From a virus, in the IMG/VR virus record IMGVR_UViG_3300030108_002424, positions 1-24,165 of that record: a stretch of 24,165 bases of DNA, one strand, 5' to 3'. Numbering within the stretch: position 1 is the first letter of the stretch; each line of letters starts with the position of its first letter. A model generated the notes under the pieces. That model ran no database searches, had not been told where the DNA came from, and was given only the letters and a program-made list of their open reading frames with translations. Positions 2,509 through 11,111 of the stretch are shown here, piece by piece. The translations under genes and the position numbers were made by a program.

Positions 2509-2846
2509 ATATTTATTTAGCTGGACTCTTTGATGGCGAAGGGTGCGTGACTTATAAAAATGTTATGAGACACAGGAAAGGTAAACCTAGAGCTTACCCT
2601 ACCTGGAACATAAGATTAGAAATAGCTATGACTTGCGAAAGAACTATACAATTTGCTTTAGATAACTTTGGTTGTGGAACTATAAATTTTAGACCAAAAT
2701 ATCCACATCAAACTATGGATCAATATCGTTGGCGTTGTTCTCACAGAGATGCTTTACAGTGTGCTAAAAGAATGTTACCATACAGCGTAACTAAAAAAGA
2801 TAAATTAGAAAGTATAGTTAAACATTATGAAATTAAAGATTCTTGA
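2469..2846 (+). CDS. LAGLIDADG homing endonuclease-like protein, 125 aa
   Basis: YLAGLFDGEGCV (16-27) is a LAGLIDADG motif, with E24 in the position of the catalytic acidic residue. The rest fits the short single-motif type, which acts as a homodimer: a beta-rich middle (WNIRLEIAMTC), FGCGTI, and a basic C-terminus. It is free-standing, not inside an intron or intein that I can see. The start overlaps the coiled-coil gene by 40 bp and the end overlaps the cytosine methyltransferase start by 20 bp. It could spread itself or its neighbours into related phages. The family call is firm; activity is unproven. Confidence 0.8.
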   Translation: MGRESKSLNCKEVDIYLAGLFDGEGCVTYKNVMRHRKGKPRAYPTWNIRLEIAMTCERTIQFALDNFGCGTINFRPKYPHQTMDQYRWRCSHRDALQCAKRMLPYSVTKKDKLESIVKHYEIKDS

Positions 2847-4242
2847 TTTATTTTCTGGGCTAGGTGGTTTCTCACTTGGTTTAGAACGTACAGGAAACTT
2901 TGAAACTATAGCTTTTTGTGATAACGATAAATACAGCAATTTAGTGCTGCAAAAACATTGGAAAGGAGTTAAGATATATAACGATGTCAAAGAAATCACA
3001 AAAGAAAGACTCGAGGCAGATGGAATTCAATCTCCCGATATCATCACAGGAGGTTTCCCGTGCCAACCGTTCTCGGTCGCAGGCAAACAAAAAGGAACGA
3101 GTGACGACAGACATCTCTGGCCTGAGATGTTTCGAATCATCAAAGAGTTTACCCCGAGGTGGGTTATTGGAGAAAATGTCAAAGGTCTTGTTAACCTCCA
3201 AGACGGCATGGTCTTCGAGACTGTGTGCACTGACTTGGAAGGAGAAGGATACGAAGTCAGGGCGTTCAATATTCCAGCTGCAGGTGTCGGTGCTCCCCAC
3301 AGGAGAGAAAGAATCTGGATTGTTGCCCACAGAAAAGAATCTATGGTCAACGCCGACGACGTTCGACTCGAACAACATAACGAAACCAAGGAAGAAACAT
3401 CCTGGTGGAGGACAAGTACCACCTTTAAACCAACAAGTGATGTGGTTAACACCATCAGCAACGGTGAGAGGCGAGAGATCTCCCGAAGCGATGAAGAAGA
3501 GAGAAGAATACAGGAAGAGCATAGGCAGGACGACAGTTCCGCCAGGCTCACTAGCAGAACAAGTTCAATACGGCAAACCAACAACGGACATGAAGATATG
3601 GAGGACTCCCGACGCACATTGCAACAGGGGACCGAGCTCCGAGAAAAGAATGAAGATGAAGTTAGAGAAGGGTATGCCAATCAGTATCAACGATCAGGTA
3701 GCACATCCGAATCTAATGTGGCCAACGCCAAGGGCGAAGGAACCAGGGAGAACGACGAAAGGTTACGGTCGAGGACTAGCGGAGTTAGTGGAAGGCAAGA
3801 AACAAGTGGAACCGAAGAAGATGTGGCCAACACCTACGCAAGACTCAGCGACGGAACGTACGAAGAAGTACAGTCAAGGGGGCAAACCTCTGACACTAGC
3901 AGTAAAGGAAGCACAGATGTGGCCAACACCGAGAGCAACGATCGGCATGACCATGAAGCTGTCACAAGGGATGGCGGATCTTCGGCACAAGAAGTATTTG
4001 GAAACGGAAGTAGCTTATCAGGAGAAAGCTCCTGGTGGCACACTGAACCCGACGTGGGTCGAGTGGCTCATGGGATACCCGGCAGAGTATACAGACTTAA
4101 AGGATTGGGAAATTCTATCGTCCCGAAAATTGCGGAAGAAATCGGTAAAGCCATAATGGAAGCCGAAGCTGATGATATTGAGTACCAAGGTGGTGGAGCT
4201 TACAAAGCTATGTTAAAACTATTTAATGAGAATTTAAAATGA
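2827..4242 (+). CDS. DNA (cytosine-5) methyltransferase, C5-MTase family
   Basis: The 471-residue protein has the C5-MTase motifs in order: I DLFSGLGGFSLGL (7-19, S-adenosylmethionine binding), IV GGFPCQPFSVAG (75-86, catalytic C79), VI GENVKG (115-120), VIII RRERIWIVA (159-167) and X GLGNSIVPKIA (426-436). Between about 170 and 410 lies a hydrophilic region rich in Glu, Arg, Ser and Thr with repeated DVANT/NVANA segments. This stands where a target-recognition domain should be and may not fold as one. The DNA here is visibly richer in GC than its surroundings and carries a second long reading frame. It probably protects phage DNA from host restriction. It overlaps the Dam-like gene by 4 bp. 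Confidence 0.9.
   Translation: MKLKILDLFSGLGGFSLGLERTGNFETIAFCDNDKYSNLVLQKHWKGVKIYNDVKEITKERLEADGIQSPDIITGGFPCQPFSVAGKQKGTSDDRHLWPEMFRIIKEFTPRWVIGENVKGLVNLQDGMVFETVCTDLEGEGYEVRAFNIPAAGVGAPHRRERIWIVAHRKESMVNADDVRLEQHNETKEETSWWRTSTTFKPTSDVVNTISNGERREISRSDEEERRIQEEHRQDDSSARLTSRTSSIRQTNNGHEDMEDSRRTLQQGTELREKNEDEVREGYANQYQRSGSTSESNVANAKGEGTRENDERLRSRTSGVSGRQETSGTEEDVANTYARLSDGTYEEVQSRGQTSDTSSKGSTDVANTESNDRHDHEAVTRDGGSSAQEVFGNGSSLSGESSWWHTEPDVGRVAHGIPGRVYRLKGLGNSIVPKIAEEIGKAIMEAEADDIEYQGGGAYKAMLKLFNENLK
2984..4156 (+). CDS. Overlapping +2-frame ORF within the cytosine methyltransferase, 390 aa
   Basis: A 390-codon ORF lies entirely inside the methyltransferase gene, in another frame of the same strand. 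It shows ordered, non-random features: ISSQEVSRANRS near the start, LCALTWKEKDTKSGR, six WPTP-type motifs (LWSTP, MWLTP, IWRTP, then MWPTP three times) and NPTWVEWLMGYP close to the end. I recall these signatures from phage proteins and from the C-terminal part of other C5-methyltransferases, but cannot verify that here. AAAGGAG (2962-2968) lies 15 bp before the ATG, longer than ideal. It may be a true overlapping gene or the remnant of a frame-shifted methyltransferase tail. Function is unknown. Confidence 0.55.
   Translation: MSKKSQKKDSRQMEFNLPISSQEVSRANRSRSQANKKERVTTDISGLRCFESSKSLPRGGLLEKMSKVLLTSKTAWSSRLCALTWKEKDTKSGRSIFQLQVSVLPTGEKESGLLPTEKNLWSTPTTFDSNNITKPRKKHPGGGQVPPLNQQVMWLTPSATVRGERSPEAMKKREEYRKSIGRTTVPPGSLAEQVQYGKPTTDMKIWRTPDAHCNRGPSSEKRMKMKLEKGMPISINDQVAHPNLMWPTPRAKEPGRTTKGYGRGLAELVEGKKQVEPKKMWPTPTQDSATERTKKYSQGGKPLTLAVKEAQMWPTPRATIGMTMKLSQGMADLRHKKYLETEVAYQEKAPGGTLNPTWVEWLMGYPAEYTDLKDWEILSSRKLRKKSVKP
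3341..3930 (+). repeat. Six in-phase ATGTGGCCAACACC-like repeats inside the methyltransferase
   Basis: Related 14-mers occur at 3341, 3440, about 3597, 3716, 3821 and 3917; three are ATGTGGCCAAC(A/G)CC. The distances between them (99, 156, 120, 105 and 96, taking 3596 as the third start) are all multiples of three. The repeats therefore keep phase and are read as VNA/VANT in the methyltransferase and as W(S/L/R/P)TP in the overlapping frame. Confidence 0.7.
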
Positions 4243-8243: not shown

Positions 8244-8636
8244 ATGGCACGACCGGAGTCAAAATTATACGCAGATCTCAAAAAAATTACCAAAGACTTT
8301 AAGTGGACAAGGCTTGAAAATTGGGCTTCATTAGGCACTCCTGACCTCCTTGGGTTCCATCCAAAAAAGTTTTTTTTCACACTAGAATTGAAAGTAACAA
8401 AACGCAACAAAGTAGCCCTGAGCCCACATCAGGTGGCCTGGCACCTGAGTCGTGGTCCAGGTAGCTTTGTGCTTGTGCATTGTATACATCTTAAGCAATA
8501 TCGCCTGTACCCTGGGTCTAGAATCGAGGAGCTTTTCCGCTTGGGCTTGAACCTTGAACCGTTGGTTCTTGGTTCGCTTGATGCCTGTGCCTGTAGTCTA
8601 AGAGAGTTTGTGCCTGTGCCTGAGGTCTACAAATAA
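8244..8636 (+). CDS. VRR-NUC/Holliday-junction-resolvase-like PD-(D/E)XK nuclease
   Basis: Residues 1-75 have the compact nuclease pattern: RLENWASLGTPDLLGF (23-38, E25 and D34), LELKV (47-51, E48 and K50) and SPHQVAWHL (60-68, Q63). This matches VRR-NUC enzymes, which cut structured DNA such as junctions or flaps. The C-terminal part (about residue 76 onward) is encoded by DNA resembling the repeats at 9590-9970. The tail DACACSLREFVPVPEVYK lies in two clear copies and may be repeat-derived rather than part of the fold. No ribosome site is evident before the ATG. Confidence 0.7.
   Translation: MARPESKLYADLKKITKDFKWTRLENWASLGTPDLLGFHPKKFFFTLELKVTKRNKVALSPHQVAWHLSRGPGSFVLVHCIHLKQYRLYPGSRIEELFRLGLNLEPLVLGSLDACACSLREFVPVPEVYK
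8582..8629 (+). repeat. Two copies of the TGCCTGTGCCTG-type repeat at the nuclease 3' end
   Basis: TGCCTGTGCCTGTAGTCTA (8582-8600) and TGCCTGTGCCTGAGGTCTA (8611-8629) match the core of the non-coding array at 9628, 9711 and 9950. A weaker copy is at 8502-8520. The last copy is followed by an A-rich run as in the array. Confidence 0.75.
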
Positions 8637-8685: not shown

Positions 8686-9291
8686 TTAGTGCTTGCCGTA
8701 AGCTATATTCTTAACGTCACGACTCCAGCAAGCTCGACAGCTTCCGCAGGTGTTGCCCTGCTCCGCTGCGGGACAAGTCTTGTCTTTGGTCACGACAGTC
8801 GAAGTCCACGGCCAAAAGCTTACCGGGCCCTGGTCGATCATATGCGAGCTAAATCTAATTATTAAATTTTTAGGAACTACTTCAGGATCCATCAAAGTCA
8901 AAAATTTTGCTTCACGGGTTGGCAGCCAGTGCCTGGTCTCTGGGGTACGCTTGCACACTTCGAATATGTTTTTTAAATGCTCCACGCTCTGGATGTCGCC
9001 TGAGTCGTGCCATCTAAAAAATTCGTTCCCTGAGACCAGGATCACCATAGCTTCGACCCATCGCGGAGAGCTCAACGCCTGTCGCCTTCGCTCTAATGCT
9101 TTTTGTACGTTGCCGAATCTATAACGACCCTTTAAAGCGTAGCAACCATAGCAGACGCTGCCTGGGATCTTAACTAGCTTTGCGCCTGTAATGCAACGGG
9201 ACGCGGGCAAGTTAAAACATGGGCCCGGCATTTTGGAGGGCTTGCTAAGCCCTCCCGTTATTTCCTTAGCTTGTTTTTTATTCAGGGGCAT
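8686..9291 (-). CDS. GP88-like cysteine-rich phage protein
   Basis: The 201-residue reverse-strand protein has features I associate with the phage GP88 family: PGSVCYGCYALKGRYRF (43-59), FFRWHDSGDI (91-100), RTPETRHWLPTREAKF (115-130) and a cysteine cluster TCGSCRACW (181-189). The nine cysteines suggest a metal or iron-sulfur site; biochemical function is unknown. GGAGG (9301-9305) lies nine bases before the ATG, inside the upstream gene, with which it overlaps by 14 bp. Base composition is richer in GC than in most of the window, suggesting a different origin. Confidence 0.7.
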   Translation of the reverse strand: MPLNKKQAKEITGGLSKPSKMPGPCFNLPASRCITGAKLVKIPGSVCYGCYALKGRYRFGNVQKALERRRQALSSPRWVEAMVILVSGNEFFRWHDSGDIQSVEHLKNIFEVCKRTPETRHWLPTREAKFLTLMDPEVVPKNLIIRFSSHMIDQGPVSFWPWTSTVVTKDKTCPAAEQGNTCGSCRACWSRDVKNIAYGKH

Positions 9292-9517
9292 TCGTTACGT
9301 CCTCCCAGTTATCCCCGTTTTTAACTTTTATGATGTCCCGGGCGTATATACTGCCAGATTCTGAAAACATTCCAATTTCATCTCCATTAGAAAAAATTAA
9401 AACAATGTTTTTCAAGCCCTTGCCCTGTTTTGGAGATTCTAACAGCTTACCAGATACTGGTGTACCTAATTGCATTGTTAAAATCTTATCGCCTTTTTTT
9501 AGGTTTTTATATTCCAT
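9278..9517 (-). CDS. Hypothetical protein, 79 aa, possible small beta-barrel
   Basis: The first gene of the two-gene reverse operon with the GP88-like protein. The sequence (YKNLKKGDKILTMQLG, then KNIVLIFSNGDEIGMF and ARDIIKVKNGDNW) has the short strands and glycine turns expected of an SH3-like barrel, but no family signature. GAGG (9526-9529) lies eight bases before the ATG. The promoter just upstream contains a perfect palindrome, so the operon is probably regulated. The product might bind nucleic acid or assist the GP88-like protein; both are inferences. Confidence 0.65.
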   Translation of the reverse strand: MEYKNLKKGDKILTMQLGTPVSGKLLESPKQGKGLKNIVLIFSNGDEIGMFSESGSIYARDIIKVKNGDNWEDVTNAPE

Positions 9518-9542
9518 AATATAAACCTCGCTTTCTAATTTT

Positions 9543-9571
9543 TAAATATCCCATATTATATGGGCTGTCAA
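9543..9571 (-). promoter_or_regulatory. Promoter with operator-like palindrome in the spacer
   Basis: On the reverse strand TTGACA (9566-9571), a 17-bp spacer and TATTTA (9543-9548) form a promoter for the two-gene operon. The spacer contains CCCATAT-T-ATATGGG (9550-9564), a perfect inverted repeat. A dimeric repressor or activator bound there would sit directly under RNA polymerase. Confidence 0.65.
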
Positions 9572-9589
9572 TAAAAAATCGTGCAAGCT

Positions 9590-9990
9590 TCACCGGGCCC
9601 GGCTTCGCTGCCGCTGTGGCGTGGTCGTGCTTGTGCTTGTAGTCTATTTATAAAGAAAAAAAAAATAAAACTTTGCGTGAAGCACGTGGCGAGCTGCCTG
9701 GTCTGCTGTGTGCTTGTGCTTGTAGTCTATACATAAATAAAAAAAAAATAAGTGTTGTAAAATTGCAACAGTTTTTTGGTGATGAGGTGCGTGGAGCTCC
9801 ACCGGGTCTGCTGTGTGTTTCTGCGTGTGTTGGTGAAAACTACGTGGAGCTTTACCGGGTCTGCTGTGCGTTTCTGCTTGTAAACTGAATTTTTCATTGG
9901 TTTATTGAGATGAGAGACGTAGAAGCTGTTGGAGCTTACTGTGTGTTTCTGCTTGTGCCTGAAGTCTACACATAAATAAATAAAAATAAC
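9590..9990 (+). repeat. TGCTTGTGCTTGTAGTCTA repeat array
   Basis: Core copies lie at 9628-9646, 9711-9729 and 9950-9968 (with C/T and A/G variants). Each is followed by ATAAA-type A-rich sequence. Two units without the TAGTCTA part, 9790-9828 and 9843-9881, match at 35 of 39 positions, spaced 53 bp. They share CGTGGAGCT, ACCGGGTCTGCTGTG and TTTCTGC. Unit spacing is irregular (about 50-110 bp), unlike CRISPR or simple tandem repeats. Confidence 0.75.
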
Positions 9991-10014
9991 CCCCGCAACC
10001 TAAGGTTGCAGGGG
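9990..10014. terminator. Strong GC hairpin at the end of the repeat array
   Basis: CCCCCGCAACC (9990-10000), loop TAA and GGTTGCAGGGG (10004-10014) form an 11-bp stem with one C/A mismatch. The downstream ATCTTT is a poor T run on the forward strand. On the reverse strand a T-rich run follows, so leftward termination is the better fit. Confidence 0.5.
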
Positions 10015-10071
10015 ATCTTTAGAAAGGTTGTATTCTCTAAAACTTATTTCATTGCTGAAATTGGAGAATAC

Positions 10072-10085
10072 ATATCCCATATAAT
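10072..10085 (+). promoter_or_regulatory. ATATCCCATATAAT motif, possible -10 region
   Basis: TATAAT at 10080-10085 is a perfect -10 hexamer preceded by ATATCCCA, a word that recurs beside other starts in this window. No -35 box is found at 16-18 bp, so if this is a promoter it needs another factor or is weak. Confidence 0.35.
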
Positions 10086-10157
10086 CATATTTTATTTTTT
10101 TTCAAGGTGTGATATATATAAAGAACAAATCAATCAATGATTTGTAGAAAGGAAAAA

Positions 10158-11111
10158 ATGGCTAGAGTGAAAATGAATAACGAGTATCGGACAAAGATAG
10201 CAAATCAAGTCCGAAATGCGTTAGACAATGATAAGTTAAACTCAAAGCGAGAGGCTTATTATCAACACCTAGAACTTGTCAAAGAACAATATCCAAAATT
10301 CTTTGACGAGGCAAAAACGATTGTCCAAAGGTCTTACCCTAAAGAACATTGTGATACTTTAAATCACTTTAAAAATCTTTATGGCGATCCTTGTGATGTT
10401 GTTGCGAAAGATAGTTGTTATTATTTTGCTTATACTGATAATGATATGAGTGAAGAAGAATACCATAACAACGAGGTCAAAAAACATTTTGATTTCAAGT
10501 TAAATGGTAATCTAAATGGTAATGAATATGATCGTAATGACGACTTTGCCTATTCTTATTATCGAGATGAGATGAAAGAAAGAAATCTCAATCCTGATAT
10601 AAACATTGAGCAAGAGGACAATCAAAATAACCCTCATTGGGAAAAACACAAAAACGCAAATAAAAGTTTTATCAAAGAAGTTGAAAATGACTTCAATGGT
10701 AATTTTGCGTGTGATGTTATAGGTACATCTTATTGTCGTTCAAGGGCGATTGCGTGTACTAAAGAGGAATTTCAAAGAATGAATGAATTCATTCAAATGA
10801 AATCTAATTTAGTCAAGTATCATCAAGAATGGCAAAGAGGAATTAGAGAGGATATGAAAGATATCAAAGCCTCTTTAAAACTTTTAAGAAACCTAGATGA
10901 GGGTATCGATTTAGCGAATAAAACTTTCGAGGCACTTGATATTGATACTCGACTTGAAGAAAGTCAAATTATCAGATCGAACTCGACAGGATTAGTTTTA
11001 TATAGTCCTGAAAATGTCGCTAGTCGTATAGCAGAAAGAAGAAAGGCGAAACTAACAAGAGAGGAAAAAATCGCCTTATATAAACAAATGCAATCTAGTG
11101 GAATAAACTAG
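10158..11111 (+). CDS. Hypothetical protein, 317 aa, first gene of an accessory operon
   Basis: AGAAAGGA (10146-10153) places the start at 10158 rather than 10137. The protein is large, soluble and highly charged, rich in Asn, Asp, Glu and Lys. It opens MARVKMNNEYRTKIANQVRN, has VAKDSCYYFAYTDNDMSEEE near residue 90 and a helical C-terminal half (REDMKDIKASLKLLRNLDEG; RIAERRKAKLTREEKIALYK). The N-terminal layout faintly recalls the putative nucleotide-modification-associated Nmad5 domain, but I would not assign it. No catalytic motif is visible. It leads five genes ending at a strong terminator. Confidence 0.7.
   Translation: MARVKMNNEYRTKIANQVRNALDNDKLNSKREAYYQHLELVKEQYPKFFDEAKTIVQRSYPKEHCDTLNHFKNLYGDPCDVVAKDSCYYFAYTDNDMSEEEYHNNEVKKHFDFKLNGNLNGNEYDRNDDFAYSYYRDEMKERNLNPDINIEQEDNQNNPHWEKHKNANKSFIKEVENDFNGNFACDVIGTSYCRSRAIACTKEEFQRMNEFIQMKSNLVKYHQEWQRGIREDMKDIKASLKLLRNLDEGIDLANKTFEALDIDTRLEESQIIRSNSTGLVLYSPENVASRIAERRKAKLTREEKIALYKQMQSSGIN

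Follow-up and report, generated by a model that had tools for sequence, protein, structure and literature searches.

What is the function of the G/T-rich repeat array that lies between a leftward operon and a rightward gene in this phage fragment? The window, meaning the whole stretch of DNA that was analyzed, is the 24,165-base virus record IMGVR_UViG_3300030108_002424. Protein matches show that it is part of the genome of an uncultured phage, a relative of Pelagibacter phage HTVC027P; identity to HTVC027P is 66% for terL, 71% for the portal and 54% for the exonuclease. The accessible text of PMC12753301 classes HTVC027P as an HTVC023P-type pelagiphage, reports all of its early genes as having no known function, and describes the mechanism by which its transcription starts as open. 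HTVC023P-type phages are considered highly abundant among SAR11 phages in the accessible part of PMC9599517.

A preliminary description of the window, made from the letters of the DNA, had placed a degenerate repeat array at positions 9590-10014, and repeats are indeed found there above chance. A repeat search returned four copies of a 39-nt unit (at 9685, 9790, 9843 and 9918, with spacings of 105, 53 and 75), and a tail unit of 42 nt came up three times (at 9627, 9710 and 9949, with spacings of 83 and 239). When as many as three mismatches are allowed, the tail motif TGYYTGTGCYTGTRGTCTA matches five times in the window versus a mean of 0.07 expected from 100 shuffles, none of which reached five. 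Two of the five matches fall outside the 9590-10014 span, at 8582-8600 and 8611-8629. The palindrome GTGGAGCTCCAC pointed out earlier is present at 9791-9802. Repeat motifs encode the C-terminal tail of ORF 8244-8636 (ACACSL / VPVPEVYK), and in HTVC027P gp32 they encode a Q/A-rich C-terminal tail. The features of the locus are listed in Table 1.

Table 1. Features in and around the repeat array (positions in the window)
Feature	Positions	Strand	Basis
Two more tail-motif copies, within 3' end of ORF 8244-8636	8582-8629	+	motif search
GP88-family gene, leftward operon	8686-9291	-	Pfam PF17338, E 6.6e-27
P-minus, predicted leftward promoter, TTGACA-N17-TATTTA; overlaps palindrome 9548-9566	9543-9571	-	motif
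Repeat unit 1, degenerate; tail motif TGCTTGTGCTTGTAGTCTA at 9628-9646	9590-9646	+	repeat and motif search
A-rich linker	9647-9669	.	sequence
Repeat unit 2; tail motif 9711-9729	9685-9729	+	repeat and motif search, unit alignment
A-rich linker	9730-9749	.	sequence
Small inverted repeat GTGTTGTAAAATTGCAACA	9752-9770	.	sequence; kept in 5 close relatives
Repeat unit 3, with palindrome 9791-9802	9790-9828	+	repeat search, unit alignment
Repeat unit 4	9843-9881	+	repeat search, unit alignment
Repeat unit 5; tail motif 9950-9968	9918-9968	+	repeat and motif search, unit alignment
A-rich linker; minus-strand reading is U-rich tail of putative terminator HP2	9969-9989	.	terminator scan, clade loci
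HP2, putative intrinsic terminator of predicted short minus-strand RNA	9990-10014	-	terminator scan (11-pair stem); 13/13 clade loci
CCUUUC linker of predicted minus-strand RNA (plus strand GAAAGG)	10022-10027	-	13/13 clade loci
HP1, first hairpin of predicted minus-strand RNA; arms 10029-10040 and 10061-10072	10029-10072	-	stem in 13/13 loci
Weak promoter-like site for predicted minus-strand RNA	10084-10113	-	9/12 matches
Conserved gene, 317 aa, right of array; ATG 10158	10158-11111	+	ORF list, relatives, model

The array had been said to hold no gene, and coding is not evident in it, because relatives differ there by indels of one or two bases and by the absence or addition of a unit of ~53 bases. 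The only ORF that crosses part of the array is a mechanical one of 71 aa with a TTG start. The CRISPR and simple tandem repeat readings, like the coding one, had also been rightly set aside. The copies are 64-93% alike and their spacing is irregular, which does not fit a CRISPR array, and TRF gives only two short runs in the array, of period 6 and 12. A type III toxin-antitoxin RNA array was rejected as well, since the downstream 317-aa gene has no toxin endoribonuclease match. Rfam returned no match in the window and none at E<=1 in 12 relatives, and further Rfam matches were all below the gathering threshold. Elsewhere in the window, two long plus-strand ORFs overlap in different frames (2827-4242, 471 aa, and 2984-4156, 390 aa), the first of which we take, by its appearance, to encode a DNA methyltransferase.

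What would have refuted the preliminary reading, a unit confined to the window and unconserved in relatives, did not turn up: the repeat unit is present in other phages and is kept in place. The exact tail motif occurs on 20 viral-contig stretches, 14 of which come from related phages according to protein matches. The other six (L014, L018, L022, L026, L028 and L029) encode no related protein, and there the motif is without the A-rich tail. Within the window's clade, judged in loci whose contig extends far enough, the array keeps one slot and one orientation, flanked on one side by the GP88-family gene on the minus strand and on the other by the 317-aa gene on the plus strand. Relatives of the 317-aa gene are encoded on 516 viral-contig stretches, 80 of which were retained. 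Among 69 checked loci with such a relative, 45 have a GP88 match, on the minus strand in every case, and the gap between the two genes is 376 to 1,851 bases and sometimes contains further genes; the remaining 24 gave no GP88 match, partly because the contig ends first. The AlphaFold2 model of the 317-aa protein (pLDDT 79) has no match in the PDB at E<=0.001, and the gene has no PHROG match and a Pfam match below threshold only. In HTVC027P, the leftward gp33 and gp34 adjoin the slot and make up an expression cluster of their own at 6-9 h post-infection according to the accessible text of PMC12753301, which is consistent with a separately controlled leftward unit, without being proof of one. 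The main text of that paper does not mention non-coding, ncRNA, sRNA, intergenic or promoter, and PMC9599517 does not mention noncoding or intergenic elements. Literature searches returned no paper on a promoter with direct repeats in a pelagiphage and, among titles and the first lines of abstracts, nothing related on pelagiphage small RNA.

The conserved slot and strand, as well as a near-invariant core with variable flanks, argue against a family of dispersed repeats that invades intergenic DNA and the ends of genes but has no fixed function. Such a family would account for the copies that lie within ORF 8244-8636 at its 3' end, for those near the start of terL in L012, L013 and L019, and for copy numbers that differ among relatives, but there is only a slim chance that it explains the array.

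The unit is an imperfect dyad of ~38 bp; its right half (GCTGTGTG-YTTSTGCTTG) is conserved, its center is variable, and the two halves are constantly unlike (CACGTRGC versus CACACAGC). A selection of 34 from the 45 units counted, leaving out duplicates and units of other length, aligns over 51 columns with no internal gaps and with variable centers. One inverted-repeat register is prominent, with 258 Watson-Crick cells versus 83-174 in twelve others. These features could reflect a plus-strand noncoding transcript, a row of 38-nt hairpins rich in G-U pairs, and the G/T-rich strand would then be explained because plus-strand hairpins use many G-U pairs. Register 53 of the 34-unit set has 78% of its cells paired on the plus strand versus 48% on the minus strand, and the plus-strand share in other registers is 31-55%. 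By a strand-symmetric score, the unit stems hold 177 G-U versus 20 A-C, and the G-U share is 90% in real units versus 80% in shuffled ones. However, covariation of the pairs is no greater than column make-up alone would give (303 of 500 shuffles were equally high, in a test of little power given that the 3' arm hardly varies), RNAalifold predicts no pair in the units, and the folding z-scores (mean -0.75) are not below those of coding controls (-0.89). Nor was any plus-strand promoter-like site found at 9200-10300. The folding and covariation checks therefore do not support the plus-strand hairpins that the G/T bias had suggested, and a transcript of this kind is unlikely. Instead, we would read the array as protein-bound DNA rather than as RNA, because the pairs show no excess covariation, the z-scores resemble those of coding DNA and a predicted promoter lies at its left edge. 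Helical phasing of the units was considered and rejected; its naive p of about 1e-4 becomes 0.46 when related spacings are merged into 7 classes, and the second clade contributes just one spacing class, 53-55.

The left-edge promoter motif, TT[GT]AC[AT]-N17-TA, is found in all 11 clade loci examined. In distant relatives, CAAGCNN heptads, as read on the minus strand, often run directly into the TTGACA -35 box. AAGC stands directly before TTGACA at 24 of 87 distinct minus-strand sites versus 0 of 43 on the plus strand, and at least two CAAGC-type words lie upstream of 41 of 70 sites versus 62 of 486 background windows. Across 80 loci (421,490 bases), many of them related, runs of GCTTGNN-type words number 380 on the plus strand and 1 on the minus strand; 252 of these runs lie no more than 1.5 kb upstream of the 317-aa gene. 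The TGCTTGTGCTTG motif of the window looks like these heptads and is possibly a relative of them. Heptads in phase into a leftward -35 box can be seen in L011 (17396-17428 and 17719-17737 of MN698241), L070, L084, L106 and others. A host origin of the heptads was pursued with four GCTTG-type heptads and led nowhere: there were at least 118 genome-contig matches, and the 80 listed come from scattered taxa, none titled Pelagibacter.

The preliminary description had the array end at a strong hairpin. The hairpin exists, but it lies outside the array as a separate minus-strand element, HP2, which seems to be the leftward terminator that closes a predicted short minus-strand RNA. HP2 has the stem-loop and following T-rich tail of an intrinsic terminator, and T predominates there when the minus strand is read (11-12 of 14 positions; 5 of 6 in L033, which is truncated) but not on the plus strand (2-5 of 14). 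Equivalent hairpins of 10-16 pairs, several of quite different sequence, are present in all 13 window-clade loci, and the HP1 stem is short in two of these (6 pairs in L031 and 8 in L040). Summed over the clade loci, the HP1 and HP2 stems have 17 A-C versus 4 G-U mismatches on the plus strand, an excess expected if the RNA is read on the minus strand, where A-C becomes G-U; the 13 loci are related, and independent events are fewer than these counts. A stem scan of the whole region in the window's clade alone gave 9 G-U versus 15 A-C (p 0.31). Promoter-like sites such as the one assigned to the short RNA number 4 in the region versus 2.7 expected. Leftward transcription should stop before the array because of this minus-strand terminator at its right edge. 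HP2 resembles an intrinsic (Rho-independent) terminator in its GC-rich stem and minus-strand U-rich tail, but what it would close is a short RNA that carries an anti-Shine-Dalgarno-like linker, not a known gene. The earlier suggestion of small RNAs holds in one part: the hairpin seems to mark the end of a short minus-strand RNA, but this RNA is separate from the repeat units. AGAAAGG-type ribosome-binding sites precede genes near the array (7354, 7749, 7897, 10147, 11154 and 11781), and GAAAGG occurs 21 times on the plus strand of the window and 4 times on the minus strand. As a general ribosome-binding site of these phages GAAAGG was ruled out, because it precedes 7 of 86 starts in HTVC027P and 4 of 29 tested starts in the window.

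Other HTVC023P-type loci contain a minus-strand hairpin, here called E1, in the slot of the array. A strand-symmetric stem scan of 60 loci, which are not independent, counted 18 G-U on the plus strand versus 70 on the minus strand (p 2e-8). In an alignment of 21 E1 sequences, half of 42 hairpins picked with a pattern that required some pairing and allowed G-U, 94.4% of cells pair versus 78.5% after shuffling, and 62 versus 20 cells are changed on both sides; none of 500 shuffles reached either value. The 61 to 13 count on E1 is biased, unlike the 60-locus scan, because the pattern required pairing and allowed G-U. A covariance model of E1 was run over 80 sources (523,846 bases, near-duplicate loci excluded) and matched 50 of them at E<=1e-5 on the strand that carries the leftward genes. 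HTVC027P, in which the hairpin lies upstream of gp35, and phage 023Pt_psg01 are among the 50; 20 of the 50 had supplied training sequences and some others are near-copies. In sources with E1 on both strands, the leftward-gene strand always scores higher. The model had no match in the window or in the searched members of its clade, and E1 had none in Rfam in the 12 loci tested. These comparisons strongly suggest that E1 is a new covarying minus-strand RNA hairpin outside Rfam. Examples are L063, L092, L100 and L011 (8594-8645), besides 46 other sources, and some loci have two or more copies. As with the large structured RNAs GOLLD, ROOL and OLE in the accessible accounts of them, the slot of the relatives contains structured noncoding RNA hairpins; it differs in that its RNA has no Rfam match and is known here as hairpins alone. 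A further minus-strand motif, TATAGGTCG ... TTGCAAAC ... CGCCTA, is common to L007, L055 and L061 in its exact pattern and occurs in a looser form in L005 and L008. Palindromes like TTTAGAA-N3-TTCTAAA are present in slot stems of L101, L106, L034 and others, and presumably recall the Irr iron-response box of alphaproteobacteria.

The leading explanation, tentative and quite possible if somewhat short of probable, is that the array serves this HTVC023P-type phage as a cis-acting control region at the DNA level. It would span the gap between the terminator of the leftward RNA (HP1-CCUUUC-HP2, 10072-9990) and P-minus (9571-9543), which would drive the operon with the GP88-family gene. A putative DNA-binding protein, from the phage or the host, may sit on the units, the A-rich linkers between them should bend the DNA, and the bound protein may control P-minus and perhaps also a divergent promoter of the rightward gene. 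The array region has a conserved position, a defined unit anatomy, and terminator and promoter motifs; protein binding, DNA bending and regulation are what we infer for it. Shared slot and orientation, the motifs at both edges, the lack of plus-strand promoter-like sites at 9200-10300, gap-free units with one register and the heptads of relatives are points in favor of a DNA control region. On the other hand, the constant difference between the dyad halves is odd for the site of a symmetric dimer, and a region devoted purely to promoter control would not be expected to have copies within the end of a gene or beside other genes.

Direct repeats beside A-rich stretches in the main noncoding gap would also suit a replication origin, with initiator repeats and A-rich stretches for unwinding, as in oriL and oriR of phage SPP1, whose origins consist of direct repeats and an AT-rich unwinding element (PMC6316719, accessible part). 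The array shares direct repeats and A/T-rich stretches with oriL and oriR; however, its several units stand at irregular intervals, an A-rich linker accompanies most of them, and no initiator gene was found adjoining the array. An origin is improbable: GC skew, the check proposed earlier, has no switch at the array and so gives no origin signal, the primase, helicase and polymerase genes of HTVC027P lie about 10-16 kb from the slot, and no initiator protein was identified.

Position between the small- and large-terminase genes would instead fit a packaging (pac) site, with the small terminase as the protein that binds it. The small terminase of the window matches Pfam Terminase_2 (PF03592; E 1.2e-5) with 26.4 bits against a cut-off of 26.1, which places it in that family. 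SPP1 gp1 belongs to the Terminase_2 family. The SPP1 pac region has direct repeats, overlaps promoters and is proposed to be recognized as bent DNA in the accessible parts of PMC4737164 and PMC6316719. The circular assemblies of HTVC023P-type genomes (PMC9599517, accessible part) and the absence of common 20-mers between the first and last 3 kb of HTVC027P also fit permuted ends. The array resembles the pac region of this Bacillus phage in its direct repeats and promoter motifs, and in DNA near terminase genes that is proposed to be bent, but pac of SPP1 overlaps the small-terminase gene, whereas the array is about 2.5 kb from it. A pac site is hence a rather remote prospect.

Finally, the DNA control region may be part of a larger arrangement, although as a whole this picture is more doubtful than probable. 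The slot would be a noncoding RNA control locus of widespread SAR11 phages, with E1 in distant relatives and, in the window's clade, a short minus-strand RNA whose CCUUUC may pair with the nearby AGAAAGG sites, and the array would act as a protein-bound enhancer of the leftward operon, analogous to the CAAGC heptads. A conserved control region that combines an unusual promoter layout and a divergent small RNA would make this locus a specific site at which the takeover of the host by these phages can be tested.
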